Positions 816-15,511 of a DNA stretch of 15,511 nt are shown piece by piece. Both the position numbers and the translations under genes were made by a program. Origin of the DNA: Candidatus Omnitrophota bacterium (GTDB taxonomy: Bacteria; Omnitrophota; Koll11; Zapsychrales; Zapsychraceae); the NCBI GenBank assembly GCA_023140095.1, contig JAGLMJ010000015.1, forward strand, positions 1 through 15,511, read 5' to 3'. The notes beneath the pieces were generated by a model that was given only the letters and a program-made list of their open reading frames with translations, was not told the DNA's origin and made no database searches. The number at the start of each line of letters is the position of its first letter. Positions within the stretch are counted from its first letter, which is position 1.

Positions 816-817
816 TA

Positions 818-1675: not shown

Positions 1676-1695
1676 ATCTATTTGGGATCAAGCCT

Positions 1696-2757
1696 ATGAA
1701 ATCATCAAACGTATATGCTGTTATTTTAGCCGGCGGTTCGGGGACCCGTTTCTGGCCGGTCAGCCGCAAGTCGAATCCTAAACAGTTTCTGAATATCACC
1801 GGCAAGGGAACGCTGCTTCAGGAGACATTAGAGCGTATTAAGCCGCAGATCGCGGGAACGCATGTTTTTATCATGACCAATACGTCTTACCGGAAGGCCG
1901 TGCAGCGGCAGATGGCCCGGTTCAGGATCCCAAAGGGGAACCTGTTGCTTGAGCCGGAAGCAAAGAATACAGCACCCGCGATCGCTTGGGCGGCGGCTAA
2001 GATCCAAAGGGTCGATCCCGGCGCGGTCATGGCTGTTTTACCGTCGGATCATCTTATTTTAGAACAAAAAAAGTTCCTAAAAGTATTGAAAGAGGCTGTT
2101 CGATTGGCGCGCAAGAATTATTTGGTCACATTGGGCATTCATCCTACGAGGCCCGATACAGGATACGGGTATTTAAAGACGGCAAAAAAGAAAGTTGACG
2201 GAAAACAGATCATAACGGTTGAGAAGTTTACGGAAAAGCCTTCTCTGTCTAAAGCGAAGCAATTTCTAAAAACAAAAAAATATTTCTGGAACAGCGGGAT
2301 ATTCGTTTGGAAGAGCTCTGTGATCCTCGAAGAATTTTCTAAGCGTCTTCCCGGGATCCATCGGTTGCTCGGCAAGAAAACCGGAATAGCCCATATCCGG
2401 AAGGTATGGCGCCGGATACCGTCGATCTCGATTGATTACGGCATTCTGGAGAAGGCAAAAAATGTTGTCGCCGTCCCGGCGCCCGGCATTGGCTGGTCGG
2501 ACCTGGGCAGCTGGGAGTCTTTAATGGCGGTCCTCTCTAAGGATAAATGCGGGAATATTCTCAAAGGAGATGTTGTTGCGGTTGATTGTCGAAACACATT
2601 GGTCTGGGGAGGGAAAAAAGTCATTGCCCCGGTCGGGCTCAACGATATGGTCATTATTGACACGCCTGATGCATTATTGGTCTGTCCCAAGGACCGGTCA
2701 CAAGACGTTCGGGACGTTGTAAATGTTTTAGTTAAGAAGAAACGCCGGGAGGTTTAG
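1696..2757 (+). CDS. manC: Mannose-1-phosphate guanylyltransferase
   Basis: This cytoplasmic enzyme makes GDP-mannose from GTP and mannose 1-phosphate, supplying mannose or GDP-deoxyhexoses for envelope glycans. The 353 residues match the nucleotidyltransferase-only form of the family; the C-terminal phosphomannose isomerase domain of the long bifunctional type is absent. Diagnostic motifs appear in order: LAGGSGTRFWP (11-21), PKQF, LLEPEAKNTAPAI (84-96), PSDHLI (116-121), TGYGY (155-159), VEKFTEKP (175-182), WNSGIF (198-203), SIDYGILEK (245-253) and GWSDLGSW (266-273). ATG 1696 follows a weak GGGA at about 1684-1687 and gives the expected N-terminus directly before the signature. It sits 20 bases after the glycosyltransferase and is probably in the same transcript. 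The guanylyl assignment rests on the FWPxSR and WSDxGSW motifs; a closely related GDP-sugar pyrophosphorylase specificity is possible. Confidence 0.93.
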   Translation: MKSSNVYAVILAGGSGTRFWPVSRKSNPKQFLNITGKGTLLQETLERIKPQIAGTHVFIMTNTSYRKAVQRQMARFRIPKGNLLLEPEAKNTAPAIAWAAAKIQRVDPGAVMAVLPSDHLILEQKKFLKVLKEAVRLARKNYLVTLGIHPTRPDTGYGYLKTAKKKVDGKQIITVEKFTEKPSLSKAKQFLKTKKYFWNSGIFVWKSSVILEEFSKRLPGIHRLLGKKTGIAHIRKVWRRIPSISIDYGILEKAKNVVAVPAPGIGWSDLGSWESLMAVLSKDKCGNILKGDVVAVDCRNTLVWGGKKVIAPVGLNDMVIIDTPDALLVCPKDRSQDVRDVVNVLVKKKRREV

Positions 2758-2805
2758 CCCGGTTTTTAATAGGATCATTTTTTAAAACAAAGATTTGGGT
2801 TAAGC

Positions 2806-3891
2806 GTGCATTCTCGTAACTGTCCACCTAAAAAGATCCTCATCATCAATACATTCGGTGTTGGGGATGTCCTTTTCACTACTCCGTTAATTAGCAATCT
2901 CAAAGCGAATGATCCGGATGTCTATATCGGGTATATCTGTAACCGCAGGACAGAGGCCCTTTTGGAGCGCAATCCTAAGGTGAACCGTATCTTTGTGTAT
3001 GAACGTGATGAATTTAATGCCGTCTATCAGCGTTCTAAAATAGCGTTAGTAAAAAAATTCCGTCAGTTCCTCAAAGAAGTGCAAAATGACCGGTTCGATC
3101 TTGTTATTGATGTGTCTTTGAGTAGGGGGACGGGTTTTTTAACGTGGATGATCGGTATTAAACAGCGTATTGGATACAATTACAAGCATCGGAGCCTCTT
3201 TCTTAATAAAAGGATCCCTCTCAAAGGATATGAGGAGAAACATGTGGTTGAATACTATTTGAGCCTTTTGGAGGAGTTGGGATGGGAGGTCCGGTCAAAA
3301 GACCTCGAATTGACGCTCAATGAGGACGATCTTAAGTGGGCAGAGAGCTTTATGTCCTCAAACCAGACGTTTTCGAACGGGAATCCCGTGATCGGCCTTG
3401 TTCCTGGCGGAGGGGCCAGCTGGGGAAAAGAATCCGCTTATAAACGATGGCCGGCTGAAAAATACGCGAAATTAGCTGACAAATTAATTGAAAAATTCTC
3501 TGCAGCCACTATACTGATGGGAGATAAAAACGAATTGGCTCTTTGTACAAAGGTTTCGCAAGCGATGTCCCATAAGCCAGTCATGGCTTGCGGAGAGACA
3601 ACCATAAATCAATTCGCCGCTTTAGCCCAAAAATGTTCATTAATGATCGTTAATGACGGCGGGCCCTTACATATTGCGGCGGCAGCCGGTGTTCAGACCG
3701 TTTCGATCTTCGGCCCTGTAGATGAGAACGTATACGGTCCATATCCTATTGGGAACCATATAGTTGTTAAAAAAGAGATCGCTTGCCAGCCCTGTTACCG
3801 GCGTTTTCGCAAAGCGAAGTGTGAACATATCAGTTGTTTAAACCAATTAACGGTTGAAGAAGTATTAGAAAGGATCAAAGAGGCTTTATGA
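2806..3891 (+). CDS. GT9 heptosyltransferase-like LPS glycosyltransferase
   Basis: This is a 361-residue GT9 (WaaC/WaaF/WaaQ) protein, the family that adds heptose from nucleotide-activated heptose to the inner core of lipopolysaccharide on the cytoplasmic side of the inner membrane. The N-terminal domain opens with KILIINTFGVGDVLFTTP (10-27), whose GD-x3-TTP is the family's acceptor-side motif. The C-terminal domain has GLVPGGGASWGKES (197-210) and NDGGPLHIAAAAG (283-295), the usual donor phosphate-binding segment. A Cys-rich segment with C327, C330, C339 and C344 near the end is typical of one GT9 subgroup. The start is a GTG: an in-frame stop at 2770-2772 bars an upstream extension, and no ATG falls before the first motif. 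No strong ribosome binding site is seen. The last codons overlap the next gene by 4 bases. Heptose as substrate is inferred from family and from the gmhB gene nearby. Confidence 0.88.
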   Translation: MHSRNCPPKKILIINTFGVGDVLFTTPLISNLKANDPDVYIGYICNRRTEALLERNPKVNRIFVYERDEFNAVYQRSKIALVKKFRQFLKEVQNDRFDLVIDVSLSRGTGFLTWMIGIKQRIGYNYKHRSLFLNKRIPLKGYEEKHVVEYYLSLLEELGWEVRSKDLELTLNEDDLKWAESFMSSNQTFSNGNPVIGLVPGGGASWGKESAYKRWPAEKYAKLADKLIEKFSAATILMGDKNELALCTKVSQAMSHKPVMACGETTINQFAALAQKCSLMIVNDGGPLHIAAAAGVQTVSIFGPVDENVYGPYPIGNHIVVKKEIACQPCYRRFRKAKCEHISCLNQLTVEEVLERIKEAL

Positions 3892-5009
3892 ACGTTCCAT
3901 TTATTGACTTTAGTAAACAATACGAGGCTATTAAGGACCGGATCGATGAAGGTTTAAAAGCTGTCTTTAAAAAAGGGAATTTTATTCTTGGGGAAGAAGA
4001 AAAGACGTTTGAAACGCAATTCGCGAATTATTGTGACACTAAACATGCCGTAGGCGTGAATTCCGGGACAGACGCGCTTTATCTGGCTTTAGGGGCTTTA
4101 GACATCAGTGTCGGCGATGAGGTGATCATCCCGACGTTCACATTTATCGCGACGGCCTTGTGTATTTCCTATACAGGGGCGAAGCCGGTTTTTGTCGACA
4201 TTGAAGATGAGACCTACAATATTGACCCGCAAAAGCTTGAAGAGGTCATAACCGATAAGACCAAGGCGATTATTCCCGTCCATTTATACGGCCAGCCGGC
4301 CAATATGGATGAGATCATAGCGATCGCCCGGAAACACAATATTGCCGTTGTTGAAGATGCTTGCCAGGCTCACGGAGCGACTTATGGAGGTAAGAAGACC
4401 GGATCATTGGGCGATATCGGCTGTTTCAGTTTTTATCCGACAAAAAGCTTAGGGGCCTTTGGGGACGGCGGCATCATTGTGACCAAGAGTGATGAGGTTA
4501 ACGAAAAAGTCCAGATGTTAAGGGATTATGGCCGTAAGGGCCGTTATGAGCATAAAGTTAAGGGATATAATTCCCGTCTAGATACGGTTCAGGCGGTTAT
4601 TTTATCAGCTAAGCTTGAGCATTTAAATGAATGGAATAAAATGCGCAATGGCCATGCGGCTTATTATTGTGAATTGTTGAAGGAAGCTTCGGGGATCACG
4701 GCTCCGGTCATTAAGGAGGGCAGAACGCATGTCTTTCAAACGTTTGCTGTGCGTGTTTCTGACCGGGGCACGGTATTAGATGGGATGAAGGCTAAAGGGA
4801 TCGGTGTCCTTATTCATTATCCGATCCCTATCCATCTTCAGGAGGCCTATGCCGATCTCGGTTATAAAAAAGGTGATTTTCCTGTTTCAGAGAAAGTTGC
4901 CGATGAAATTTTATCGCTGCCGATGTTCCCGCATATGAATAAGAATCAGATCGAATATGTTTGCGCGTCCTTGAAAGAGGTATGCGCCCAAAACCAGAAA
5001 GTGTTCTAA
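3888..5009 (+). CDS. DegT/DnrJ/EryC1/StrS sugar aminotransferase
   Basis: This PLP-dependent enzyme of 373 residues aminates a keto group on a nucleotide sugar to make an amino sugar for the envelope glycan. Visible family features are GVNSGTDAL (56-64, PLP phosphate binding), VVEDACQAHGA (154-164, with D157 contacting the pyridine nitrogen), and SFYPTKSLGAFGDGG (181-195), where K186 should form the Schiff base. NSRLDTVQA at about 228-236 is more like the sugar 3-aminotransferases (WbpE, QdtB, FdtB group) than the 4-aminotransferases, so a 3-keto substrate is my inference. ATG 3888 lies in an ATGA overlap with the GT9 stop, which indicates translational coupling. The next gene starts directly after its stop. 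No dehydratase, dehydrogenase or acetyltransferase that would complete the pathway is in the window. Confidence 0.92.
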   Translation: MNVPFIDFSKQYEAIKDRIDEGLKAVFKKGNFILGEEEKTFETQFANYCDTKHAVGVNSGTDALYLALGALDISVGDEVIIPTFTFIATALCISYTGAKPVFVDIEDETYNIDPQKLEEVITDKTKAIIPVHLYGQPANMDEIIAIARKHNIAVVEDACQAHGATYGGKKTGSLGDIGCFSFYPTKSLGAFGDGGIIVTKSDEVNEKVQMLRDYGRKGRYEHKVKGYNSRLDTVQAVILSAKLEHLNEWNKMRNGHAAYYCELLKEASGITAPVIKEGRTHVFQTFAVRVSDRGTVLDGMKAKGIGVLIHYPIPIHLQEAYADLGYKKGDFPVSEKVADEILSLPMFPHMNKNQIEYVCASLKEVCAQNQKVF

Positions 5010-5774
5010 ATGGAAAAGATCCTGCTGTCGCTCGTCGTCATTACAAAGAATGAAGAGGATAATATCGAGAAATGCCTGGGCAGCGCGTATGGCTGGGCTG
5101 ATGAGATCGTTGTCGTTGACGATCAGAGCACGGACACTACAGTTGCGCTGGCTGAAAAATACGCGGATAAAATATTGCACCGCCGGATGGACAACGAGGG
5201 CACGCACCGCAATTGGGCCTATGCCCAGGCAAAGAACGAGTGGGTCTTAAGCCTTGACGCGGATGAATATGTGACCGAAGAGCTCAAGAAAGAAATTACG
5301 GAAGCGATCAAGGATCCGAGTTTCCATGCCTATTCGATCCCGCTGCGCAATTTTATCGGAAGTTATCAGGTTCGGTATTCCGGATGGTATCCGGCGGGAA
5401 AATTACGGCTATTCATGAGGAGCCGGTTTAAATATGAAGAAGTCGAGGTCCACCCCAGAGTTTTTCTCGAAGGGGAGACCGGGCATTTAACCAAAGACAT
5501 TGTCCATAAAGGATATCCTGATTTTGAGCATTTCCTGACGAGCCTCAATCGCCAGACGACGCTTGAGGCGAGAAAATGGATACAAACAGGGCGTCACATG
5601 TCTTTAGGTAAGGCTATTTGGCGGACTATCGACCGGTTCCCGCGCTCCTTCATCCGCAAGCGCGGATACAAGGACGGGTTTATCGGTTTTATGATCGCGT
5701 TTTTTGCTTCGCTTTATCAGGTTATGAGCTACGCGAAATACTGGCAGATGAAAAAAGAGAACATTAAGCTATGA
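5010..5774 (+). CDS. WaaE/KdtX-like GT2 glycosyltransferase
   Basis: This 254-residue GT2 enzyme resembles the WaaE/KdtX subgroup, known in enterobacteria for adding glucose to the inner-core heptose of lipopolysaccharide. It starts LSLVVITKNEEDNIE, has WADEIVVVDDQSTDTT (29-44) for nucleotide binding, and SLDADEYVTEE (81-91), whose DAD binds the metal and UDP-sugar. GWYPAGKLRLFMR (125-137) and VEVHPRVF (145-152) are further subgroup features. The C-terminal part after residue 217 combines RKRGYKDGFIGF with a hydrophobic stretch (about 224-240), suggesting peripheral attachment to the inner membrane. The ATG abuts the stop of the aminotransferase (TAA ATG), and the end overlaps gmhB by ATGA, so translation is probably coupled on both sides. 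The exact donor (glucose or another hexose) cannot be settled from sequence. Confidence 0.88.
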   Translation: MEKILLSLVVITKNEEDNIEKCLGSAYGWADEIVVVDDQSTDTTVALAEKYADKILHRRMDNEGTHRNWAYAQAKNEWVLSLDADEYVTEELKKEITEAIKDPSFHAYSIPLRNFIGSYQVRYSGWYPAGKLRLFMRSRFKYEEVEVHPRVFLEGETGHLTKDIVHKGYPDFEHFLTSLNRQTTLEARKWIQTGRHMSLGKAIWRTIDRFPRSFIRKRGYKDGFIGFMIAFFASLYQVMSYAKYWQMKKENIKL

Positions 5775-6403
5775 AAGTTGTTTTCCTCGACAGAGATGGT
5801 GTGATCAACCAATTCCCGGGCAACGGAAAATATGTGACCAAGCTCAACGAATTTCACTTTGTTCCCGGGTCTCTCGATGCCTTGCGCATTCTAACGGAAG
5901 AGGGGTATTCGATCTATATTGTTTCTAATCAGGCCGGTGTTGCTAAGGGGGTCTATTCGAAACAGAAGCTTGAGCATATCACCCGCAATATGCTTAAGGA
6001 TATTCAAGCGATGGGGGGCAAAATAAAAAAGGTATTTTATTGCACGCACTTTTCGCATGCCGGTTGTGAATGCCGCAAGCCGGAGATCGGGGCTATCCGC
6101 AAGGCCTTTGAATTGGCCAATAAAACGATCCATTTAGCTCAGAGAGCGTTCTTTGTCGGCGATACGGAATCGGATATTCTTACAGGACATAATGCCGGCT
6201 GCACGACTATTTTTGTTCTATCCGGACGTGAAGACCGCCGCCACATGCGCGGCTGGAAGATCAAGCCGGATTATGTCGCCAGAGACCTGCTGGAGGCCAC
6301 GGATATTATCAATGAGCGCAATCTTCTCCGGTCACGCCGGAGGAAGAGAAGGGCGTTGACCGTTAAGTCTGTCCGCAGGCGTTCACCCAAGAAAGCCTCT
6401 TAA
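5771..6403 (+). CDS. gmhB: D-glycero-manno-heptose 1,7-bisphosphate 7-phosphatase
   Basis: This HAD-superfamily phosphatase removes the 7-phosphate from heptose 1,7-bisphosphate in the route to ADP- or GDP-activated heptose. All catalytic elements are present: DRDGVIN (7-13) with nucleophile D7 and acid/base D9, S52-N53 in VSNQAGVA, K103 in CRKPEIGAI, and FVGDTESDI (128-136) with D131 and D135. The GmhB-specific zinc loop is intact (C91, H93, C99, C101). The core ends near residue 186. Residues 187-210 form an extra basic tail with 13 Arg/Lys among 24 residues, which is unusual; typical GmhB proteins are shorter. The start overlaps the WaaE-like gene by ATGA. The alpha (GDP) versus beta (ADP) anomer preference is not decidable here. 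An HisB-type histidinol phosphatase is the main alternative and less likely in this context. Confidence 0.9.
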   Translation: MKVVFLDRDGVINQFPGNGKYVTKLNEFHFVPGSLDALRILTEEGYSIYIVSNQAGVAKGVYSKQKLEHITRNMLKDIQAMGGKIKKVFYCTHFSHAGCECRKPEIGAIRKAFELANKTIHLAQRAFFVGDTESDILTGHNAGCTTIFVLSGREDRRHMRGWKIKPDYVARDLLEATDIINERNLLRSRRRKRRALTVKSVRRRSPKKAS

Positions 6404-6423
6404 CCGACAATCGACTATCTGTA

Positions 6424-7509
6424 ATGAAAATTCTTGTTATCCATGCTTCTGCCGGAGCGGGGCATCTCAAAGCTGCCGAGGCGGTCTATAACGGCATCCG
6501 CAAATCGACGGACCATGATGTTGTTCTCGTCGATGCCCTTGACTACTCGAGCTTCTTTTTCAGAAGATTCTACAAAGAGACCTATTTCTTTCTTATTTCC
6601 AGGATTCCTTCCGTATGGGGATTCTTTTTCCGGATCCTGGATATTCCTGGGCTTCAGCCCTTCATAAGGGTTTTACGGCGTGTTCAAAACCGGTTGAATA
6701 CGGGGAAACTTCACCGGTTCATGCAGGAGGAGCAGTTCAATTATATCATTATGACGCACTTTATGCCGACGGAAGTAGCGGCGGCATTGAAAAGGTCGGG
6801 GCGCATTTCTTCAAAACTGATCACGGTTGTCACGGACTTTGATGTCCATAAAATTTGGCTTGCCGACGGGATCGATATCTACACCGTTGCCAGCGATTGG
6901 ACAAGAGGAACATTGGAGAATATCGGCATTCCGCAAGAAAATATTGTTGTCTCAGGCATCCCGACAGATGAGAAATTTTCTCATCCTGTTGATATCAAGT
7001 CTCTCAAAAGGAAGCTGGGCCTCCAGGAGGATCTGTTCACGGTCCTTGTGGCGACCGGTTCATTTGGCATCGGGCCCATTGAGGAGATCATTGATACGCT
7101 TAAAGGTTTCCAGATCGTCGTTGTCTGTGGGCATAATAAGGGCCTTTATAATAGGTTAAGCGCCCGGGATTCCAGGCTTGTGCATGTGATGGGTTTGGCG
7201 GATAATATGCATGAGCTGATGGCGGTCTCTGATGTGATGGTGACCAAGCCCGGCGGGCTGTCGATCTCTGAAGCCTTGGTGAGCCAGTTGCCGCTGGTCT
7301 TCTTTAACGCCATTCCCGGGCAGGAGACCGGAAATATCAGGGTGCTGGCGACATACGGGATCGGTATCAGCGGGTGCAGTGTTAATGAAATCGGCGAGCG
7401 TTTGAAGAAAATGAGAGCTTCCAAGGATATGTTCCTTACCACTCTTAAGAGGACAAAAGCATTAGCCCGTCCTTGCGCTGTCAGCGATATCATATCTTTG
7501 ATTAGGTAA
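6424..7509 (+). CDS. MGDG synthase/UgtP-like diacylglycerol glycosyltransferase
   Basis: This 361-residue GT28-type enzyme resembles monogalactosyldiacylglycerol synthases and UgtP-type glucosyltransferases, which transfer a hexose from UDP-sugar to diacylglycerol at the membrane surface. The N-terminal domain has HASAGAGHLKAAEAV (7-21), the glycine loop of the family, an aromatic segment at about 40-72 that may contact membrane, and TVVTDFDVHKIW (134-145), where family members carry TDFxxHxxW. The C-terminal domain has ATGSFGIG (210-217), VVCGHN (233-238), TKPGGLSISEAL (274-285) and PGQETGN (298-304), matching the UDP-sugar site. It starts 20 bases after gmhB without a strong ribosome binding site and closes the envelope run; no terminator hairpin with a T tract follows. 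The acceptor may be a lipid other than diacylglycerol. Confidence 0.85.
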   Translation: MKILVIHASAGAGHLKAAEAVYNGIRKSTDHDVVLVDALDYSSFFFRRFYKETYFFLISRIPSVWGFFFRILDIPGLQPFIRVLRRVQNRLNTGKLHRFMQEEQFNYIIMTHFMPTEVAAALKRSGRISSKLITVVTDFDVHKIWLADGIDIYTVASDWTRGTLENIGIPQENIVVSGIPTDEKFSHPVDIKSLKRKLGLQEDLFTVLVATGSFGIGPIEEIIDTLKGFQIVVVCGHNKGLYNRLSARDSRLVHVMGLADNMHELMAVSDVMVTKPGGLSISEALVSQLPLVFFNAIPGQETGNIRVLATYGIGISGCSVNEIGERLKKMRASKDMFLTTLKRTKALARPCAVSDIISLIR

Positions 7510-7538
7510 AAGTTATTTTGTTTATGTTGTAAACGTTA

Positions 7539-7688
7539 TATGAGGTTATGTCGGTTATAAAGGTTAGAGTTCGAAAGTGGCTTTAAGTTGTATGAGGTTA
7601 TGCTAACCTTAACTTTATGTAACATAAAACAACCTATGGACGGTAACGTCCATAACCTTCATTAACCTTCATAATGTTTATAACCTCA
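7539..7688. repeat. AGGTTA/TAACCT repeat-dense intergenic region
   Basis: The gap between the lipid glycosyltransferase and the priA-like gene is packed with short related units. TATGAGGTTATG occurs twice exactly (7539-7550 and 7591-7602, 52 bases apart). TAACCTTCAT is an exact 10-base tandem pair (7653-7662, 7663-7672). Further AGGTTA lies at 7561-7566, a CGGTTA variant at 7552-7557, and TAACCT at 7604-7609 and 7681-7686. The two orientations can pair: AAGGTTAG (7560-7567) with CTAACCTT (7603-7610), and TGAGGTTAT (7541-7549 or 7593-7601) with ATAACCTCA (7680-7688). No coding frame of note crosses it. It may be a binding array for a regulator, a decayed interspersed element or a structured leader; the sequence alone does not decide. 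Confidence 0.7.
7635..7654 (+). other. 8-bp hairpin with GTAA (GNRA-type) loop
   Basis: TATGGACG (7635-7642) and CGTCCATA (7647-7654) form a perfect 8-bp stem closed by GTAA, which as RNA would be a stable GNRA tetraloop. It lies inside the AGGTTA/TAACCT region, about 50 bases before the priA-like start. No T tract follows, so it is not a standard intrinsic terminator. A structured leader or part of an element is possible. Confidence 0.6.
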
Positions 7689-7702
7689 ATAACATTTAGA
7701 TC

Positions 7703-9550
7703 ATGAAACCCAAAATAGCTAAAGTTGTTGTCGGCCTTCCGGTTGACGGTCCGTTTGACTATCAGATCAGCGCGGATCTCCAAAGTCGAATTACCGTCGG
7801 GCAACGCGTGCGCGTGTCCTTTAACCGGCGCGACCGCGTCGGGTTTGTCGTCGGCACGGCGCAGCGCAGTTCATTTGCGCGGTTGAACCCAATCGTGTCT
7901 TTATTGGATAACGGCCCTGTCCTGGACGGGCCGGCCTTTGAATTGGCCCGCGCGATCAGCGCTTATTACGGCTGTTCGTTGGGAGAAGCGATCGAGGCGT
8001 GCCTGCCGCCGGCGTTGCGGCATGACAAAGTTTCCATAAGTTCCGTCTTTGCGCCGGCAGCGACGAAAGCGGACGCGGAAAAGAGCGGAAGGGTCCTCGT
8101 TCATGATCACACCCGTTATAAACGCTGGCCGTTCATTATCGAAAATATCAAGAAGGTTATTGATCAGGAGAGGCGCGTGATCGTCCTTGTTCCCGAGATG
8201 GCGTTCATTCCGGGAACTGTTTCAATCCTTAGAAAGGCGCTCGCGTGCCCTATGGTGGTTCTTGACAAGAAGTTAACACCGAAAAAGGAATGTGCGCAGT
8301 GGGAGAAAATAAGAGGCGGAGAATACGCCATTGTCGTCGGAGTGCGTTCAGCGGTCTTCGCGCCGGTCCCCGATTTAGGGCTTATCGTTATTGACGACGA
8401 GGAAAACGAGGCTTACAAGCAGGAGCAGACGCCTCATTATCGCGCCGGGGAGGTTGTGCAAATGCGCGCGGACATCGAACAATGCCAAGTGATATTTTCC
8501 AGTTCTGTCCCTTCGGCGGAAATATGGGAGAAGGCCAGGCGCGACAAGTGGGAAAGAGCCGTTTTGGATACGGACAACGACAGTCAAGTACAGGTCGTTG
8601 ATATGACCAACTATAATCCCGGCAAGACCTCGATCCTTTCGTTCCCGCTTCAAAACGCGATGCAAAAGACATTAGACGATGGGGGGAAGGCGCTTCTTTT
8701 TATGAACCGCCGGGGTTTTAGCACGCGGACGCATTGCCAGCAATGCGGGTTTACCGTCAAATGCGAACGGTGCAATGTCAATTTGTCCTATCTGTATTCA
8801 AAAAAGATGATGGTTTGCCGCCACTGTAATTTTAAGAGGGAACTCCCCAAGGTGTGCCCGCAGTGCAATGGGTCCTATCTGCAGTCGACGGGGATCGGCG
8901 TCGAGAAATTAGAAAGTAATGTGGCCAGATTTTATCCGGGGGCGAGAATTCACCGTTATGATAGCGGGAACAAAATCTTTATCAAGAATGCGGATATTAT
9001 TATTGCGACGGGCGCGGTGTTCCGGCGGCATGAACAATGGGCCGTTTCCCTGGTGGCCATGCTGGATTTTGACGGCCAGATGCATCACTATGATTTCCGT
9101 TCGGGCCAAAAGGCGTTTTCGCTTTTAGTTCATTTAAAACAGTTGGCAAGCGAAAAATTGTTGATACAAACGCGCATGGGCGGCAATTATTGCCTTGAGG
9201 CCGTTAAGACCATGGATTTTCCTAAGTTTTACCGTGAAGAATTAAAATTACGCAAAGAATTGAACTTGCCGCCGTACAGGCATTTAGTGGCATTGGGCCT
9301 GCGCGGGAAAAAAGAGGATACAGTTTTTGAGCAGGCTCACGACCTTTATGACCGGTTAAAGGAGAAAGGTTCTAAGGGCATTGATATGTCCGACCCTCAT
9401 CCTGATGTCAATCCAAAATTGCGGGATCAATATCGTTACACGATCTTATTGAAAGGCAGGTCGGTTAAGAGTATACTGGCCCTTATTAAATCGGTGCTTA
9501 AAGGTTTTAAAAAGCGAAGTATTATTATCGCGGTTAATGTGGATCCCTAA
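7703..9550 (+). CDS. priA: PriA-like primosomal protein N' lacking helicase motifs
   Basis: PriA normally binds stalled replication forks, unwinds DNA with ATP and reloads the replicative helicase. This 615-residue protein is collinear with PriA but shorter than the usual ~700-800. Kept features: the N-terminal DNA-binding domain start (KVVVGLPVDGPFDYQI, GQRVRVSF), VGVRSAVFAPVPDLGLIVI (212-230), YKQE-x2-PHYRAGEV, and a complete zinc module with eight Cys (345, 348, 354, 357, 372, 375, 385, 388). Lost features: the Walker A position reads DHTRYKRW (135-142) instead of GxTGSGKT; the DEEH box reads DDEE (231-234); the SATPS motif reads SSSVPS; GTQM reads ATGAV; and the QVAGRAGR arginine-finger motif is absent (HLKQLASE, 477-484). 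ATG 7703 has no clear ribosome binding site. Its stop overlaps the fmt start (TAATG). Probably a non-ATPase fork-binding or loader-scaffold protein, as known for actinobacterial PriA. Confidence 0.82.
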   Translation: MKPKIAKVVVGLPVDGPFDYQISADLQSRITVGQRVRVSFNRRDRVGFVVGTAQRSSFARLNPIVSLLDNGPVLDGPAFELARAISAYYGCSLGEAIEACLPPALRHDKVSISSVFAPAATKADAEKSGRVLVHDHTRYKRWPFIIENIKKVIDQERRVIVLVPEMAFIPGTVSILRKALACPMVVLDKKLTPKKECAQWEKIRGGEYAIVVGVRSAVFAPVPDLGLIVIDDEENEAYKQEQTPHYRAGEVVQMRADIEQCQVIFSSSVPSAEIWEKARRDKWERAVLDTDNDSQVQVVDMTNYNPGKTSILSFPLQNAMQKTLDDGGKALLFMNRRGFSTRTHCQQCGFTVKCERCNVNLSYLYSKKMMVCRHCNFKRELPKVCPQCNGSYLQSTGIGVEKLESNVARFYPGARIHRYDSGNKIFIKNADIIIATGAVFRRHEQWAVSLVAMLDFDGQMHHYDFRSGQKAFSLLVHLKQLASEKLLIQTRMGGNYCLEAVKTMDFPKFYREELKLRKELNLPPYRHLVALGLRGKKEDTVFEQAHDLYDRLKEKGSKGIDMSDPHPDVNPKLRDQYRYTILLKGRSVKSILALIKSVLKGFKKRSIIIAVNVDP

Positions 9551-10476
9551 TGAACATAATCTTTTTTGGAAGCGATGATTTTGCGGAAGCTCATTTAAGA
9601 GCATTGATCGGTTCTAAACATGAGTTGCTTGCCTGCGTGACGCAGCCGGACCGTCCTAAGGGCCGGGGAATGAAGGTCGTGGTTTCAACGGTCAAAGAAT
9701 GCGCCCAAAAGCATGATATCCCTGTTTGGCAACCGGCATCCTTGAAAGAGGCTTCCTTTATTAAAGGCCTGGCAGGCTTTCAAAGCGACCTGTTTGTTGT
9801 GATCGCTTACGGGAAGTTTCTCCCGACGGAGGCCTTAAGCGTTCCGTCTCAAGGCGCGATCAATGTCCATGCGTCACTTCTGCCGAAATACCGGGGAGCG
9901 GCGCCGATCAATTGGGCGATCATTAACGGTGAGGCGAAGACCGGCATCTCGATCATAGAAATAAATGAGGAGATGGATGCCGGGGATATTCTGGTCCAGA
10001 TGGAAATAAAAATAGAAGAAGAGGAAACGGCGCCGACTTTACGCGCCAAGATGATCAAACAAGGGCCGGATCTTCTTTTGCGAACCATCAATGATCTCTC
10101 AAGCTGCGTGGCAAGAACGCAGGACCGCGGTGACGTCACGTTTGCGCCGAAGTTGACCAAGGAATTAGGACGCATCGATTGGGCAAAGCCGTCCATCGAG
10201 ATCGGCCGCTTGGTGCGCGGTTTAATGCCGTGGCCCGGGGCATATACGTCCTATAACGGAAAGTTACTGAAAATATTAGAGGCCCAGGTTCTCGACGGAG
10301 ATCCGTCCCAAGGGGAAGCCGGGGTCGTTCTGGAGACCGGCAAGGAGGGCGTTGTTGTTTCGACGGGCGACGGCCGGCTGCTGGTTCGGAAAGTTCACTT
10401 GCAGGACGCTAGCCGCATGGACGCGCATAGTTTTGTCATTGGGCACGATCTGAAAGTCGGATACAAGCTTACGTAA
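9550..10476 (+). CDS. fmt: Methionyl-tRNA formyltransferase
   Basis: This cytoplasmic enzyme formylates Met-tRNAfMet using 10-formyl-tetrahydrofolate, for translation initiation. The 308 residues match the family's usual length (about 310). The N-terminal formyltransferase domain begins NIIFFGSDDFA and has TQPDRPKGRGMK (31-42), the catalytic segment INVHASLLPKYRGAAPI (104-120) with N105 and H107, and MDAGDIL (142-148) with D143 as the third catalytic residue. The C-terminal oligonucleotide-binding-like domain starts near RIDWAKP and includes RGLMPWPGAYT (219-229 region). It overlaps the priA-like stop by one base, a common priA-fmt arrangement, but the def (peptide deformylase) gene often found between or next to them is missing. 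The gene ends just before an extragenic inverted repeat. Assignment is secure. Confidence 0.96.
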   Translation: MNIIFFGSDDFAEAHLRALIGSKHELLACVTQPDRPKGRGMKVVVSTVKECAQKHDIPVWQPASLKEASFIKGLAGFQSDLFVVIAYGKFLPTEALSVPSQGAINVHASLLPKYRGAAPINWAIINGEAKTGISIIEINEEMDAGDILVQMEIKIEEEETAPTLRAKMIKQGPDLLLRTINDLSSCVARTQDRGDVTFAPKLTKELGRIDWAKPSIEIGRLVRGLMPWPGAYTSYNGKLLKILEAQVLDGDPSQGEAGVVLETGKEGVVVSTGDGRLLVRKVHLQDASRMDAHSFVIGHDLKVGYKLT

Positions 10477-10492
10477 GACGTAATTTGGAGCA

Positions 10493-10616
10493 CCAAATAA
10501 CAAGCACCAAATTACAAATAAGAACCAAATCTCAATGACCAAATGACCAAAACTGGTTTTGATCATTCGAATTTCGGTTATTGTGATTTATTTGCTATTT
10601 GGGATTTGTTTATTGG
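10493..10616. repeat. Imperfect ~124-bp inverted repeat, likely interspersed element
   Basis: The fmt-galT gap holds a long imperfect palindrome. Its left half repeats ACCAAAT-like words and its right half repeats ATTTGG-like words. The centre pairs AATGACCAAAAC (10542-10553) with GTTTTGATCATT (10556-10567), 11 of 12 positions, around a 2-base loop. The outer arms (CCAAATAA at 10493-10500 against TTATTGG at 10610-10616) also match with small gaps. I recognise this ACCAAAT/ATTTGG style from extragenic repeats in metagenome-derived bacterial genomes. It makes spurious reading frames on both strands. It carries no transposase, so it would be a non-autonomous element if mobile at all. Confidence 0.65.
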
Positions 10617-10661
10617 AATTTTGTTATCAACATATCTTACAAGTAGCGCAAGAGGGAAGTT

Positions 10662-11666
10662 ATGCCGCAGTTGAGAAAAGATCCGGTTGTCGGCCGGTGG
10701 GTGATCATTGCCAAGACGAGGGCGAGAAGGCCGGGTAACTTTGTCGATCGGAATGATCATGAGCAGGAAGACGCAGACCGGGAATGCCCGTTCTGCAATG
10801 TTCAGCCGGGAGGCGGCAGTCCGGTTTTCTCATCGGGAGATATCCATATTGTTTCTTCGCAGATCTACAGTTCCGACAGGCGCCGCAAACTGCGCCGGAC
10901 GAAGAAGGGCCTCTATGATGTGATTGATGGTTTAGGCGCGCATGAGATCGTTATTGAAACGCCGGAGCATCTGACGAACATGGCTGACCTGGACGTCGAT
11001 CAAATTCAGCTGGTCCTCGAGGCTTATTCGGCCCGGATGCAGGAACTGGAGAAAAATCCGCAGTTCCGTTATGTCCTCGCCTATAAGGATTACGGCCCGA
11101 CGGCCGAAGGACGCAGGAGGGCGCATACATGCTCGCATATTGTGGCCACTCCCGTGAGGCCTTTACGCGTTAAAGAGAAATTGACCGGGGCCAAAGAATA
11201 TTTTGATGCCAATAAAACTTGCGTTTATTGTGACCTGATCGCCCAGGAACTTGAGTCCCGCGAGAGGATTATTTATGAAACCGAGCATTTTCTCGCCGTC
11301 ACGCCGTTTGCGGCCCGGTCGCTCTTTGAGACATGGGTCCTGCCCAAAGCGCATCATTGTGATTTTCCTCAAGGTATTATCGGCAAGGAAGGCGACCTTG
11401 CGGCGATGATGAAGATGCTATTAAAGAAATTTCAACAAGGTTTAGATGATCCGGCGTATAACTTTGTCGTCCAGACGGCGCCGTTCGTGCGGGGCAGTTT
11501 AGGCAAGCGCAAGTGGGAAAGTATCGAACGCGATTATCATTGGCACATTGAACTGATGCCGCGTTTGACCCGGGTGGCCGGGTTCGAAAAAGGGACCGGG
11601 TTTTATATTTGCGCCATCCCGCCGGAAGATATGGCGGAATATTTAAGGGGGGTTGAGGTTACGTGA
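10662..11666 (+). CDS. GalT-family paralogue with degraded active site
   Basis: This 334-residue protein has the GalT fold of hexose-1-phosphate uridylyltransferases (HIT superfamily). It starts LRKDPVVGRWVIIAKTRARRP, has zinc-ligand CPFC (42-45), GAHEIVIETPEH (92-103), a second CVYC (187-190), HWHIE (293-297) and a usual C-terminus. Active-site positions differ: the HxHxQ motif reads H155-T-C157-S-H159, so Cys replaces the uridylylated histidine; the loop before it has one extra residue and three Arg; the RVVPNKFPA segment of active relatives reads HIVSSQIYS (62-70); and the later metal-ligand His is Q271. I infer that it is not a standard uridylyltransferase and may be a regulatory or structural partner of the next gene. 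A GAGGG ribosome binding site (about 10652-10656) supports ATG 10662. Its stop overlaps the next start by 4 bases (GTGA). Confidence 0.85.
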   Translation: MPQLRKDPVVGRWVIIAKTRARRPGNFVDRNDHEQEDADRECPFCNVQPGGGSPVFSSGDIHIVSSQIYSSDRRRKLRRTKKGLYDVIDGLGAHEIVIETPEHLTNMADLDVDQIQLVLEAYSARMQELEKNPQFRYVLAYKDYGPTAEGRRRAHTCSHIVATPVRPLRVKEKLTGAKEYFDANKTCVYCDLIAQELESRERIIYETEHFLAVTPFAARSLFETWVLPKAHHCDFPQGIIGKEGDLAAMMKMLLKKFQQGLDDPAYNFVVQTAPFVRGSLGKRKWESIERDYHWHIELMPRLTRVAGFEKGTGFYICAIPPEDMAEYLRGVEVT

Positions 11667-12676
11667 CAGAATTAAGACGCGATCCCGTCATCGGCCAATG
11701 GGTCAATGTGCATGTTGAAGATTCTCTTAGCCCGGGACATTATGAAAAGCAAGACCAAACGCCCAGGCATGAGGCGACATGCCAGTTTTGCCCCGGCCGC
11801 GAGCAACAGACGCCGCCAGAGGTCGACGCTATTCGCCTGAACAATTCTGCCCCGAACACGCCGGATTGGCAGGCGCGGGTCGTTCCCAACAAATTCCCGG
11901 CCTTGCAGATCGAAGGAAATATCGACGAGGCTAAGGATGGGCTGTTCGATTTCTCGAATGGCGTCGGGGCCCATGAAGTCCTCATTGAAACGCCGGTTCA
12001 CGGAAAAAATCTGGCGGACTTTACTGAAGGCGAAGTCGGTGATGTGATCAGGCTGTATCAAAACCGCCTGCGGGATTTGACCGGAGATAAGCGGTTCAAA
12101 TATATCATCATCTTTAAGAACTACGGAGAGTCCGCCGGAACAAGCGTTGAACATGCCCATAGCCAGATCATCGCGCTTCCGATGATCCCGAAATATGTCC
12201 TTGAGAAGATCGAGGGGGCAAAGGCTTATTACGGTCAGCATCAGAGATGTGTTTTCTGTGATATGGCCGGGCAGGAGCATGAGGATAAGAAAAGGATCTT
12301 CTGCGAAAATGACGATTTTATCGCCTTTTGCCCGTTTGTTTCAAGGTACGCGTTCGAATATTGGATCATGCCTAAGGCACATGATTCAAAATTCGCGGAA
12401 ATGAACGATAAAAAGAGGCAGGCCCTGGCCAATATATTAAGGGAAACGCTATTGCGCCTTAAGAATTGCCTATCGGACCCCTCGTATAATTATTATCTGC
12501 ATGTGGCGCCTGTGAACACAGGAAAGGAAGAAGAATTCCATTGGCATATTGAGGTCGTCCCTAAATTGACGCGAACGACCGGTTTTGAACTGGGAACGGG
12601 ATTTTATGTTGTACGCACTTCCCCCGAAGAGGCCGCCGGCTATCTGCGCGGTGTCCAATGCGCTTTAGCCGCTTAA
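11663..12676 (+). CDS. galT: Galactose-1-phosphate uridylyltransferase family enzyme
   Basis: GalT exchanges UMP between UDP-glucose and galactose 1-phosphate in the Leloir pathway; close relatives act as other sugar-1-phosphate nucleotidylyltransferases or nucleoside-diphosphate-sugar phosphorylases. All expected elements are present in 337 residues: LRRDPVIGQWV (4-14), CQFC (40-43, zinc), RVVPNKFPAL (72-81, nucleotide binding), GAHEVLIETPVH (102-113), the catalytic H164-A-H166-S-Q168, CVFC (196-199), YYLH280 and FHWHIEVVP (292-300). H166 should be the residue uridylylated during the reaction. The GTG start lies in a GTGA overlap with the upstream paralogue and follows a G-rich ribosome binding region (GGGGGGTTGAGG, ending about 11658). 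The exact substrate pair is open: no galK or galE is in the window. Confidence 0.88.
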   Translation: MTELRRDPVIGQWVNVHVEDSLSPGHYEKQDQTPRHEATCQFCPGREQQTPPEVDAIRLNNSAPNTPDWQARVVPNKFPALQIEGNIDEAKDGLFDFSNGVGAHEVLIETPVHGKNLADFTEGEVGDVIRLYQNRLRDLTGDKRFKYIIIFKNYGESAGTSVEHAHSQIIALPMIPKYVLEKIEGAKAYYGQHQRCVFCDMAGQEHEDKKRIFCENDDFIAFCPFVSRYAFEYWIMPKAHDSKFAEMNDKKRQALANILRETLLRLKNCLSDPSYNYYLHVAPVNTGKEEEFHWHIEVVPKLTRTTGFELGTGFYVVRTSPEEAAGYLRGVQCALAA

Positions 12677-12689
12677 ATTCTCCTTTATC

Positions 12690-12709
12690 TGCAAATATTT
12701 GCAAATATT
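12690..12709. promoter_or_regulatory. Perfect 16-bp palindrome / tandem decamer, candidate operator of gapA
   Basis: TGCAAATATT is repeated exactly at 12690-12699 and 12700-12709, one helical turn apart. Bases 12694-12709 read AATATTTGCAAATATT, a perfect 16-bp palindrome, and 12691-12702 are a perfect 12-bp palindrome. The site ends five bases before the gapA -35 candidate, a position suited to a dimeric activator or a repressor overlapping RNA polymerase contacts. The regulator is unknown. Confidence 0.6.
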
Positions 12710-12713
12710 GTTC

Positions 12714-12740
12714 TTGACAATTCGGCGGACTAGTTATATT
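12714..12740 (+). promoter_or_regulatory. Sigma-70-type promoter candidate for gapA
   Basis: A perfect TTGACA lies at 12714-12719. The best -10 match, TATATT, is at 12735-12740 with a short 15-base spacer; a poorer TATTTT at 12737-12742 gives a 17-base spacer. It is the only clear promoter-like pair in the galT-gapA gap and fits a gapA transcript with a leader of roughly 65-70 bases. Confidence 0.6.
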
Positions 12741-12799
12741 TTATATGTCTTACCGGATCTCGGATTCCATATATAAACAATGAATAGTAGTGAACATAA

Positions 12800-13828
<1,029 letters not shown>

Positions 13829-13863
13829 ATCCATTGATTTAATGGGCTCACGCATAATAGAAT

Positions 13864-13902
13864 AAAGCCCTCAACAGGTTATGCTTGTTGGGGGCTTTTC
13901 TT
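13864..13902 (+). terminator. Intrinsic terminator of gapA
   Basis: AAAGCCCTCAACA (13864-13876) pairs with TGTTGGGGGCTTT (13886-13898) to give a 13-bp stem with one G-T wobble and a loop of about nine bases, followed by TTTTCTT (13896-13902). It ends the gapA transcript 35 bases after its stop. Confidence 0.9.
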
Positions 13903-13942
13903 AATCCCCAGGATTTTCGCGTATTTCGGTTTTGGAAGAAAG

Positions 13943-13948
13943 AGGAGG
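13943..13948 (+). promoter_or_regulatory. Ribosome binding site fixing the start of the first receiver gene
   Basis: AGGAGG at 13943-13948 lies 4 bases before ATG 13953. A longer frame could begin at the TTG at 13932, but that codon precedes the Shine-Dalgarno sequence itself and would add seven residues absent from the receiver fold. The ATG is therefore the start. Confidence 0.85.
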
Positions 13949-13952
13949 ATAT

Positions 13953-14345
13953 ATGGGACAAAAAAAGATACTTATTGTCGATGATGAGAGAAAAATAAGA
14001 GATATGCTCGTGGAGATCTTGTCGGCGGCGGGCTACATGGCGGTCTTTGCCGAGGATGGCGAAGAAGGTGTCAAGCAAGCCAAGGCGCATCTGCCCGACC
14101 TTATTTTAATGGATGTGATGATGCCGAAAATGGCCGGCGGGGAAGCGGTCAGATGTCTTGGGGAAGATCCCGCCACCAAGGATATTCCGGTGATCTTTCT
14201 AACGTCCATTATTACCAAAGAAGAGGAAGAAAGTCAGGAGTTTGGCATTCAATTAAGTATGGGCAAACGCCGTTTTATCGCCAAACCCTTTGAGCCGCAG
14301 AAATTGTTGGCTGAGATCAAGGAAGCATTAGAGGGCCAGGGCTAG
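13953..14345 (+). CDS. Stand-alone CheY-like response regulator receiver
   Basis: This 130-residue protein is a single receiver domain with no output domain, so it acts by protein-protein contact or as a phosphate relay. It starts KKILIVDDE, giving acidic residues D10 and D11, has the phosphoacceptor D54 in LILMDVMMP (51-58), the switch threonine T84 in IFLTS, and K111 in FIAKPFEP (108-115). The stretch between T84 and K111 is longer than in most CheY-like proteins and contains an acidic run (KEEEES, 89-94) that would sit in the beta4-beta5 surface region. Start ATG 13953 is set by the AGGAGG just upstream. It lies 50 bases after the gapA terminator, and no clear promoter is visible in that interval. 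A second receiver gene follows 23 bases later. The cognate kinase may be the sensor gene at the window end, but that is inference. Confidence 0.9.
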   Translation: MGQKKILIVDDERKIRDMLVEILSAAGYMAVFAEDGEEGVKQAKAHLPDLILMDVMMPKMAGGEAVRCLGEDPATKDIPVIFLTSIITKEEEESQEFGIQLSMGKRRFIAKPFEPQKLLAEIKEALEGQG

Positions 14346-14368
14346 AATTTTTTTAAAAAGGAAAGATC

Positions 14369-14749
14369 ATGATTAAAGAAAAGATCCTCATTGTCGAGGA
14401 TGAAAGCACGACGCGGGCTTTGCTTGTCGCGGAACTCGAGAAGGTCGGTTATCAGATGTTCCATTCCAAGGATGGTGAAGAGGCTTTTCAGGTTATCAAA
14501 GCGGTCAGGCCCGATCTTATTATTTCTGATATTGTGATGCCTGAAATGGACGGGAACCAGCTTATCAAACGGGTACGGGAAAGCGAATTCGGTAAAAAAA
14601 TCCTGTTTATTGTGCTGACCTCACACACCAAAATGCAGGATTATTTTGAAATGATGGACGTGCAGGATTTTATTACGAAACCGTTTGACCCTCAAGACCT
14701 CATCTCAAGGGTAGAAAGGGTTTTTGAAAAAGCAAGCGAAGAAGAGTAA
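14369..14749 (+). CDS. Second stand-alone response regulator receiver
   Basis: This 126-residue single receiver domain resembles its upstream neighbour in layout but is clearly diverged. Key residues: E10-D11 in ILIVEDE, phosphoacceptor D54 in LIISDIVMPEMDG (50-62), T84 in IVLTSHT, and K104 in FITKPFDP (101-108). There is no DNA-binding or enzymatic output domain. The C-terminus is acidic (KASEEE). AAGGAAAG at 14358-14365 serves as ribosome binding site. With the preceding gene 23 bases upstream and a strong terminator downstream, the two form a small operon. Its likely role is in a phosphorelay or in control of a chemotaxis-like or sensor-kinase pathway; the partner is not identifiable here. 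Confidence 0.9.
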   Translation: MIKEKILIVEDESTTRALLVAELEKVGYQMFHSKDGEEAFQVIKAVRPDLIISDIVMPEMDGNQLIKRVRESEFGKKILFIVLTSHTKMQDYFEMMDVQDFITKPFDPQDLISRVERVFEKASEEE

Positions 14750-14773
14750 GCCTGATTTCGCATCCGGGTGCAA

Positions 14774-14797
14774 AATTCATCAGCCGGCTGATGAATT
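14774..14797. repeat. Perfect 24-bp palindrome downstream of the receiver genes
   Basis: Each side of the centre (between 14785 and 14786) mirrors the other for 12 base pairs, with a GCCGGC core and AATT ends. Four further bases on each side (14770-14773 with 14802-14805) can pair across a small bulge. It lies 24 bases after the receiver stop and 33 bases before the terminator stem. It has no T tract. It may be a protein-binding site, an mRNA-stabilising 3' hairpin or an interspersed palindromic repeat. Confidence 0.75.
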
Positions 14798-14830
14798 GGC
14801 TTTGCGATGAAAATAAAGTGGTATATTTTT

Positions 14831-14858
14831 AAAGAGGGCAGGAATGCCCTCTTTTTTT
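14831..14858 (+). terminator. Intrinsic terminator of the receiver operon
   Basis: AAAGAGGGCA (14831-14840) and TGCCCTCTTT (14845-14854) form a perfect 10-bp stem with a GGAA loop, and the T run extends to 14858. This is a textbook rho-independent terminator separating the receivers from the sensor gene. Confidence 0.93.
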
Positions 14859-14889
14859 GTGGAATTTTCGCGGTTTTTTCAATAAAGTG

Positions 14890-14917
14890 TTCAAATTCCT
14901 TCAGAACCTTATATACT
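14890..14917 (+). promoter_or_regulatory. Weak promoter candidate for the sensor gene
   Basis: TTCAAA (14890-14895) and TATACT (14912-14917) are separated by 16 bases. The -10 matches 5 of 6 consensus bases but the -35 only 4 of 6, and the region is AT-rich, so chance matches are likely. The upstream terminator does imply that the sensor gene needs its own promoter in 14859-15013. The same spacer holds TGAATATTAAT twice (14919-14929, 14962-14972) and GTATATG twice (14939-14945, 14957-14963). Confidence 0.3.
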
Positions 14918-15013
14918 TTGAATATTAATAGATTTTTTGTATATGTCTAGTAATATGTATATGAATATTAATCAAGTCGAAAAAGACGCTTTCTAGAATC
15001 TGGAAGAAAGAAA

Positions 15014-15511
15014 ATGAAAATACGCCAAAAACTGCTTCTTGGGTCGTTGGGATTTGCTTTACTCGTCGGAATGGTGGGCTATATTTCGGTTTACAAAAGT
15101 CAAGAGTCCTTAGAAAAATCGATCGGAAACGGTTCAACGATTTTAGCTCAAGAAACGTTAGATAAAATCGATAGAGGCATTTATCTTCGGATTGAGGAAA
15201 TGCTAGTTCTTTCACGGGACCGAAAGATTCAAGAGGCGGTTATACAATCAAATCGAGAATTTGATCAGATGCCTGACCGCCAGGCCCACATTAACAAAAA
15301 GGAAGAAGAATGGGTGTCTGTATCAAAAGGGGCGGTGGCGTCTTTTATACAACAGTTATCTGATATTGAGGCGTCACAAGAATTACGGGAAAGGATAGAA
15401 TTTCATAGAAAGAAATATGGGTATAAGATTTTTTCGGAAATTTTTGTGACAAATAAGTATGGCGTCAATGCCGTTCAAACAGGAAAGACGACTGATTACA
15501 GGCAAGATGAC
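15014..15511 (+). CDS. Membrane sensor protein with Cache-like domain, 3' end outside window
   Basis: The frame from ATG 15014 is open for 166 codons to the window edge. It begins MKIRQKLLLGSLGF with one hydrophobic segment at about residues 7-27, following a positively charged N-terminus, as expected for an uncleaved signal anchor. The part after it should be periplasmic and contains IFVTNKYGVNAVQTGKTTDYRQDD at about 143-166 (key residues NKYG, QTGK, DYRQDD), which I recognise from dCache-type ligand-binding domains of sensor histidine kinases and chemoreceptors. The output domain lies outside, so kinase, cyclase or methyl-accepting roles all remain possible; a histidine kinase is favoured by the two receiver genes just upstream. 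A GGAAGAAAG stretch (15002-15010) is a weak ribosome binding site. The gene looks more AT-rich than the upstream genes. Confidence 0.8.
   Translation, partial: MKIRQKLLLGSLGFALLVGMVGYISVYKSQESLEKSIGNGSTILAQETLDKIDRGIYLRIEEMLVLSRDRKIQEAVIQSNREFDQMPDRQAHINKKEEEWVSVSKGAVASFIQQLSDIEASQELRERIEFHRKKYGYKIFSEIFVTNKYGVNAVQTGKTTDYRQDD

Follow-up and report, generated by a model that had tools for sequence, protein, structure and literature searches.

The window analysed here comprises 15,511 nucleotides from a Candidatus Omnitrophota bacterium (positions 1 to 15,511 of the forward strand of contig JAGLMJ010000015.1, assembly GCA_023140095.1) and carries a priA-like gene at 7703..9550. The encoded protein is most likely a pseudohelicase and the sole PriA in its host, acting as a passive fork scaffold for DnaB loading after secondary loss of its motor. 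Judged from its sequence and a predicted structure, the PriA fold and the DNA-binding domains are retained and the ATP site is erased. The features of the gene were assigned as follows.

7703..9550, forward strand: priA-like gene, 615 aa, predicted motorless PriA (pseudohelicase)
7721..8008, forward strand: 3'-DNA-binding domain (PF17764), residues 7-102; 83.3 bits, cut-off 22.7
8084..8572, forward strand: RecA-like lobe 1 with degenerate ATP site, about residues 128-290; DEAD 17.5 bits, below the cut-off of 26
8105..8128, forward strand: Walker A position, DHTRYKRW, residues 135-142, by alignment
8393..8404, forward strand: motif II position, DDEE in place of DEEH, residues 231-234, by alignment
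8498..8515, forward strand: motif III position, SSSVPS, residues 266-271, by alignment
8735..8866, forward strand: zinc-binding CRR with eight Cys, residues 345-388; PF18319 17.8 bits, below the cut-off of 26
9005..9016, forward strand: motif V position, ATGA, residues 435-438, by alignment
9113..9157, forward strand: motif VI position, AFSLLVHLKQLASEK, residues 471-485, QVAGRAGR absent, by alignment
9272..9547, forward strand: PriA_C domain (PF18074), residues 524-615; 54.7 bits, cut-off 26.9

Motor motifs and DNA-binding parts of the protein

The open reading frame has no internal stops, and its product belongs to the PriA family (367.3 bits against the whole-protein profile TIGR00595, cut-off 230.35). 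All eight zinc-binding Cys were aligned (345, 348, 354, 357, 372, 375, 385 and 388), in agreement with the original prediction of a full-length PriA with an intact zinc module. The overall PriA fold was predicted by a single structural model, on which the Foldseek list and VIA-align were concordant. The winged-helix domain is missing, and the 11 canonical Omnitrophota rows displayed lack it as well. Among NCBIfam models the nearest was canonical PriA, PRK05580.1-3 (423 bits, under the cut-off of 813), and PRK14873, which we take to be the actinobacterial PriA set, gave 160.5 bits at best (cut-off 812).

None of the superfamily 2 (SF2) motor motifs Q, I, II, III, V and VI was found in the window protein. 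The replacement letters reported in the original prediction (DHTRYKRW, DDEE, SSSVPS and ATGAV) and the missing QVAGRAGR were all confirmed by alignment; motif II reads more widely IDDEEN and motif V IATGAVF, and LLVHLKQLASEKLL occupies the site of the canonical QVAGRAGR. The statement that no other frame restores Walker A held in a six-frame scan, as GxxxxGK[ST], DE[EAVI][HD], [GS]SATP and QxxGRxGR were absent from every frame of both strands across 7703-9550 and each of the other five frames contained 16-38 stops. The same kind of motif replacement was seen in the nearest relatives, at loci L001, L002 and L059 (84, 79 and 74% identity). Because it recurs across other assemblies, the loss is not a sequencing error. 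The 120 best homologues showed 46-91% identity to the window protein, the top one being a fragment; DEEH occurred in seven and QxxGRxGR in none. The sole GxxxxGK[ST] string among the 119 spanning residues 135-142 lies off the Walker A position (P0073, residue 184). A comparison with homologues from the same phylum, proposed earlier as a check, thus gave a divided answer: Walker A is present in 0 of these 119 close relatives, whereas canonical PriA occurs elsewhere in the phylum. The close relatives carry a common replacement, HDxTxxKRWP, with W at 142 in 116/119, and R141 and W142 are retained in 81 and 79 of 113 rows of the wider main group of motorless proteins. On these sequences, the motor loss is neither an artefact nor strain-specific decay.

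Individual positions were counted in the 113 main-group rows and in 34 canonical rows. The Walker Lys remained in 7/113 and the Walker Thr/Ser in 2/113 main-group rows, compared with 34/34 canonical rows each, the canonical figures following partly from the sorting rule. The DEEH His was found in 1/113 vs. 32/34, the motif III Thr in 9/113 vs. 34/34, the first and second Gly of motif V in 4/113 and 2/113 vs. 34/34 each, and R587 of motif VI in 3/113 vs. 34/34. In contrast, motif Ib was retained (R304 in 99/113 vs. 34/34, S305 in 106/113 vs. 33/34 and F308 in 110/113 vs. 34/34), as were the aromatic-rich loop (Y327 in 107/113, Y335 in 109/113 and R344 in 106/113, canonical 34/34 each), G429 of motif IV (107/113 vs. 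34/34) and the full set of eight zinc Cys (106/113 vs. 34/34). The assignment of motifs to ATP or DNA contact is general SF2 knowledge. The loss is selective in these alignments: the engine, that is, the nucleotide-contact positions, is erased and the grip, the DNA-binding parts, is retained. The earlier claim that every motif is lost was therefore upheld for the ATP-contact and coupling motifs but not for the DNA-contact positions, which are largely kept. According to the portion of PMC10175261 available, the aromatic-rich loop sits in the fork junction and has a coupling role.

The erasure differs in degree between members. In 21 main-group rows the region N-terminal to Walker A is shortened and has no LTxEQ-like Q-motif; a Q-motif is present in the motorless rows from small genomes (LSPHQ, LSPEQ). 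Partial remnants were found in L105 and L132 (motif V GT) and in L214-L218 (DEEQ or DEEE). Moreover, the zinc module is wholly missing in 11/121 motorless rows (L025, L028, the L058/L060/L061/L065 group and L214-L218) vs. 0/34 canonical rows, the open frames measuring 531-569 aa in the small-genome lineage and 553-586 aa in the main-clade cases. The E. coli CRR is critical for unwinding and bears the PriB site, as described in part of PMC10175261, and its loss is understandable where motor and PriB are both absent.

Extent and origin of motor loss in Omnitrophota

The distribution was evaluated in 193 Omnitrophota genomes, sampled evenly across the phylum to which G001 (the genome carrying L002) belongs. 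A TIGR00595 search gave 159 matches over the cut-off; among the 150 listed, 83 scored at least 560 bits and 67 at most 454 bits, with no genome appearing twice, and the 83 high scorers all begin at profile position 1 or 2. Sequences were read for 33 of these 83 and for 66 of the remaining 110 genomes. K230 with T/S231 was present in 33/33 high-scoring genomes and in 0/66 of the others, a contrast partly by definition since canonical rows were sorted by this pair. QxxGRxGR was found in 34/34 canonical rows (including L044) and in 0/121 motorless rows (66 genomes, the window and 54 further loci; 108 distinct proteins). Six unread lower scorers look fragmentary and were left unclassed (G013, G071, G007, G073, G055 and G141). 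A scan of 71 loci used patterns of motorless rows and is hence biased to them, a bias that the TIGR00595 search does not share; two short ends, L069 and L071, were not extracted, and the 155-row table excludes L027, L030, L035, L040, L045, L050, L054, L057, L063, L064, L067 and L070, which are partial, frame-broken or foreign.

The 3'-binding domain (PF17764) matched in 172/193 genomes, once in each except G075 and G124, both of which have a high-scoring PriA. With this profile, neither a second PriA nor a second 3'-binding-domain protein was seen in the motorless genomes searched, which answers the earlier suggestion to look for a second canonical PriA. Because the match is single per genome and duplicated only beside high-scoring PriA, the motorless form appears to replace canonical PriA, as far as the sampled metagenome-assembled genomes (MAGs) tell.

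The origin of the loss was assessed with PriA and RpoB trees, which are unrooted or rooted by choice. In the PriA tree, built without the motif columns and rooted on three proteobacterial rows (including E. coli), a 100/98 branch separates these three from the 37 Omnitrophota rows, motorless and canonical alike. The main motorless group forms one clade (100/95), adjoined by L105/L132 (99/95), and L106 stands separate; three motorless rows from small genomes fall among canonical rows (97/94). A single origin of all motorless rows was not rejected by this tree (log-likelihood difference 0.28, approximately unbiased (AU) test p-AU 0.49). RpoB (loci L165-L211 and L224-L235) served as an independent marker. 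In its tree, whose deep branches are weakly supported, a 100/100 branch sets apart the 26 main-group genomes, and motorless G135/G048 and G127 nest among canonical genomes. A single change was recovered in 0% of 200 bootstrap trees, with three changes across the 5-95% range. One origin was weakly rejected (p-AU 0.0441, an optimistic value because the tested group was seen on the first tree before the AU test). With the small-genome group added, which joins either side, the bootstrap range was 3-4 changes. Repeated loss thus rests on RpoB, because the PriA tree permits one loss. Taken together, motor loss was probably repeated within Omnitrophota. We lean slightly towards separate losses, one in the ancestor of the clade whose RpoB carries a deletion and others in G135/G048, G127 and the small-genome lineage (G005, G009, G012, G015 and G018), followed by a minimal PriA without zinc module.

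The RpoB segment concerned, at about 220-296 of the TIGR02013 profile, is missing in all 26 main-group genomes, in 5/5 added genomes (G037, G101, G122, G136 and G183) and in 8/9 further motorless genomes, the ninth (G194) having no RpoB match. The segment is intact in 18 canonical genomes, in G198 and in motorless G135, G048, G127, G005, G009, G015 and G018. RpoB frames measure 1133-1178 aa in the main motorless clade vs. 1231-1306 aa elsewhere, a fused frame in G193 apart. In the sequences compared, the deletion is a clean marker of the main motorless clade. It also constitutes the loss of an RNA polymerase domain. Two records titled Planctomycetales and Elusimicrobia (L010 and L060) combine a clade-typical motorless PriA with the RpoB deletion in their genomes, and these labels are probably wrong.

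Selection, partner proteins and gene neighbourhood

Nonsynonymous to synonymous rate ratios (dN/dS, Nei-Gojobori) between the window gene and its nearest relatives were 0.113 (L001), 0.121 (L002) and 0.109 (L059). These values are not near 1, and they bear out the original proposal that a helicase-free PriA is retained by selection in a lineage outside Actinobacteria. The ratio of dN in lobe 1 to dN in the 3'-binding domain was 1.41 in motorless pairs (20 pairs) vs. 0.47 in canonical pairs (45 pairs). All these figures are descriptive, because many pairs have a dS close to saturation and rows are shared between pairs. As read from the codons, motorless PriA is maintained by purifying selection, and the motor lobe has shed extra constraint yet remains under selection.

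The replacement by PriB, PriC or DnaT that had been suggested was not borne out: in 47 genomes, DnaT gave no match, PriC one sub-threshold match and PriB none over the cut-off. Sub-threshold PriB matches in 46/47 genomes (frames of 126-186 aa) are presumably SSB. Therefore, no restart alternative of the E. coli type is visible among these genomes. DciA-type matches were found in 54/58 genomes, 53 of them over the cut-off, and DciA and RecG occur beside both motorless and canonical PriA. RecG was over the cut-off in 161/193 genomes, and a RecG/Mfd-type match (E<=1e-60) was present in 192/193. Twelve genomes have a single strong RecG-type match at this E-value where most have two (G003, G005, G009, G015, G018, G048, G098, G131, G135, G156, G165 and G176); the missing one is probably Mfd. 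RecQ was considered as a substitute and showed no enrichment (6/18 canonical vs. 6/26 main motorless genomes, plus G135 of three others). An SSB-tail pocket placed by K. pneumoniae numbering (W82, Y86, R697 and Q701) did not match the residues of E. coli PriA at these positions, and nothing is claimed from it.

Downstream of priA lies the following gene.

9550..10476, forward strand: fmt (methionyl-tRNA formyltransferase), with a one-base overlap between its ATG and the stop codon of priA

Among loci with room, fmt directly follows priA in 46/49 motorless and 15/30 canonical Omnitrophota loci, and in 0/2 outside the phylum. The coupling to fmt, offered originally as a sign of selection, is thus tighter in the motorless form but not special to it. 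Upstream, the intergenic stretch 7505-7702 contains repeated GGTTAT/ATAACC units, possibly regulatory, with four direct copies of a 15-nt repeat (7644-7695) and an imperfect inverted pair of 26 nt (7541-7566/7663-7688). Elsewhere in the window, 10662-12676 holds a tandem pair of GalT-family (galactose-1-phosphate uridylyltransferase-like) genes.

Proposed function, alternatives and known PriA proteins

We propose that the window PriA would neither bind nor hydrolyse ATP productively and would not unwind the lagging strand. It would recognise an abandoned fork or displacement loop through the 3'-binding domain, the lobe-1 loop and the CRR/C-terminal domain, and passively clamp the template of the lagging strand. 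DnaB would be recruited directly or, more probably, together with DciA. At junctions with a duplex lagging strand, single-stranded DNA would have to come from another enzyme or a pre-existing single-stranded gap. Secondary loss of the motor would have occurred in the ancestor of one large Omnitrophota clade, with probable further losses in smaller lineages.

Several observations weigh against this proposal. Motif II is only half lost (D320 in 54/113 and E321 in 56/113 main-group rows, canonical 34/34 each) and E322 persists in 106/113 (34/34 canonical); the protein may still bind some ATP in a non-canonical way. The pseudohelicase function is deduced from sequence and a predicted model, and the sorting rule makes the canonical/motorless motif contrast partly definitional. 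The single copy was seen in relatives' genomes, which are MAGs of unknown completeness, and a 3'-binding-domain match is missing in 21/193 genomes, reflecting MAG gaps or real absence. The median dN/dS is higher in motorless than in canonical PriA (0.116 in 16 pairs with dS<2 vs. 0.076 in 12 pairs), and constraint on the lobes may serve a role other than restart. DciA is weak in main-group genomes G037 (5e-4, under the cut-off), G038 (4e-5) and G052 (3e-5), and no match was found in main-group G044. Furthermore, E. coli priA300 suppresses recG defects (PMC4752480, from a partial text), and the RecG loss alongside motorless PriA that this predicts was not seen: a strong RecG match (threshold about 1e-197) is missing in 15/83 canonical-scoring and 12/66 motorless genomes read.

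A protein that has left restart and is retained as a DNA-structure binder, for example in fork protection or recombination control, would also keep its DNA-binding surfaces without a motor, and could dispense with the zinc module as 11/121 motorless and 0/34 canonical rows do. We regard this as unlikely, given that no second 3'-binding-domain protein was found in the motorless genomes searched, that PriC, DnaT and PriB gave nothing over the cut-off in 47 genomes, and that the D. radiodurans pseudohelicase still binds DnaB, according to the text available of PMC4504706. The original prediction had raised an ancient non-helicase branch; in such a branch the motifs would never have existed or would have been lost before Omnitrophota arose. 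The divergent sequence, the two-humped TIGR00595 score distribution and a PriA tree compatible with one origin (p-AU 0.49) are consistent with it. However, the 100/98 branch, where the root was chosen, separates motorless and canonical Omnitrophota PriA together from three Proteobacteria, and L105, L132 and L214-L218 hold intermediate remnants; secondary loss is therefore preferred. In addition, the window protein is nearest to PRK05580.1-3, although under its cut-off, and far from PRK14873, and we consider an ancient branch quite improbable. A decaying pseudogene or sequencing artefact is scarcely credible: every ATP motif is lost in the window copy, frames are interrupted at motorless loci L030 and L067, and in G068 and G174 the 3'-binding domain and the remainder lie in separate short frames, but the frames of the window, L001, L002 and L059 are open, dN/dS is about 0.11 and the loss is common to a clade whose MAGs stem from many projects.

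To our knowledge, most bacteria retain the PriA motor, and its natural importance is an old question. Secondary motor loss in Omnitrophota suggests that restarting broken replication does not necessarily require PriA to be a motor. The motorless clade stands beside canonical relatives in the same phylum and therefore offers matched pairs for testing the motor's purpose. The irreducible core of PriA may be the 3'-binding domain, motif Ib, the aromatic-rich loop and the C-terminal domain, and a helicase annotation on such Omnitrophota genes would be misleading. If repeated loss and minimal forms are real, Omnitrophota would provide a natural series leading from a helicase to a scaffold that binds forks, revealing the PriA parts that restart needs.

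As to known systems, actinobacterial PriA is not known to have helicase motifs. It is described as 'smaller and very divergent' in an excerpt of PMC1193525, and the window protein resembles it in being a short, divergent PriA but differs in profile (160 bits at best for PRK14873 vs. 423 for PRK05580.1-3). E. coli can do without the PriA motor, as parts of PMC10175261 and PMC4504706 describe: the ATPase- or helicase-dead K230R/K230A (priA300) proteins support primosome assembly and restart (PMC4504706), and ATPase-dead PriA still loads DnaB, helicase activity being dispensable for PriA-PriB restart (PMC10175261). However, priA300 is a laboratory point mutant with its other motifs intact, whereas the Omnitrophota erasure is natural and clade-wide. 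The canonical Omnitrophota PriA (L044, L075-L104 and L162-L164) has the same domain order, likewise without winged helix in the rows displayed, but carries GxxxxGK[ST] and QxxGRxGR in 34/34, the former partly by the sorting rule.

A close counterpart is D. radiodurans PriA, a biochemically demonstrated pseudohelicase (Lopper et al., 2015; PMC4504706). As far as the available sections of that paper go, it has no functional Walker A/B, no measurable ATPase and negligible unwinding; it binds DnaB, and its affinity for single-stranded DNA and forks is within about twofold of that of E. coli PriA. Restart without unwinding was proposed, and a clear PriB or DnaT homologue is absent from the genome. 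In Deinococcus-Thermus, compared by description only, motifs I and II are poor and the Walker A Lys is changed to Arg (PMC4504706, in part). The window protein, of PriA descent with its catalytic residues replaced, would fall in the same class by sequence. PriA pseudohelicases as a kind are thus already known, since 2015, and the novelty outside Actinobacteria implied by the original prediction does not stand. No literature on PriA in Omnitrophota was found, most subscription papers lying outside the coverage of the search. By the same descriptive comparison, Omnitrophota, a different phylum, are unlike D. radiodurans in that replacement also extends to the Q-motif stretch and motifs III, V and VI, in that some members are without the whole zinc module, and in that canonical PriA persists in the same phylum. 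New here are the extent of the predicted pseudohelicase within a phylum that also holds canonical PriA, its probable repeated origin by motor loss, and members without the zinc module.
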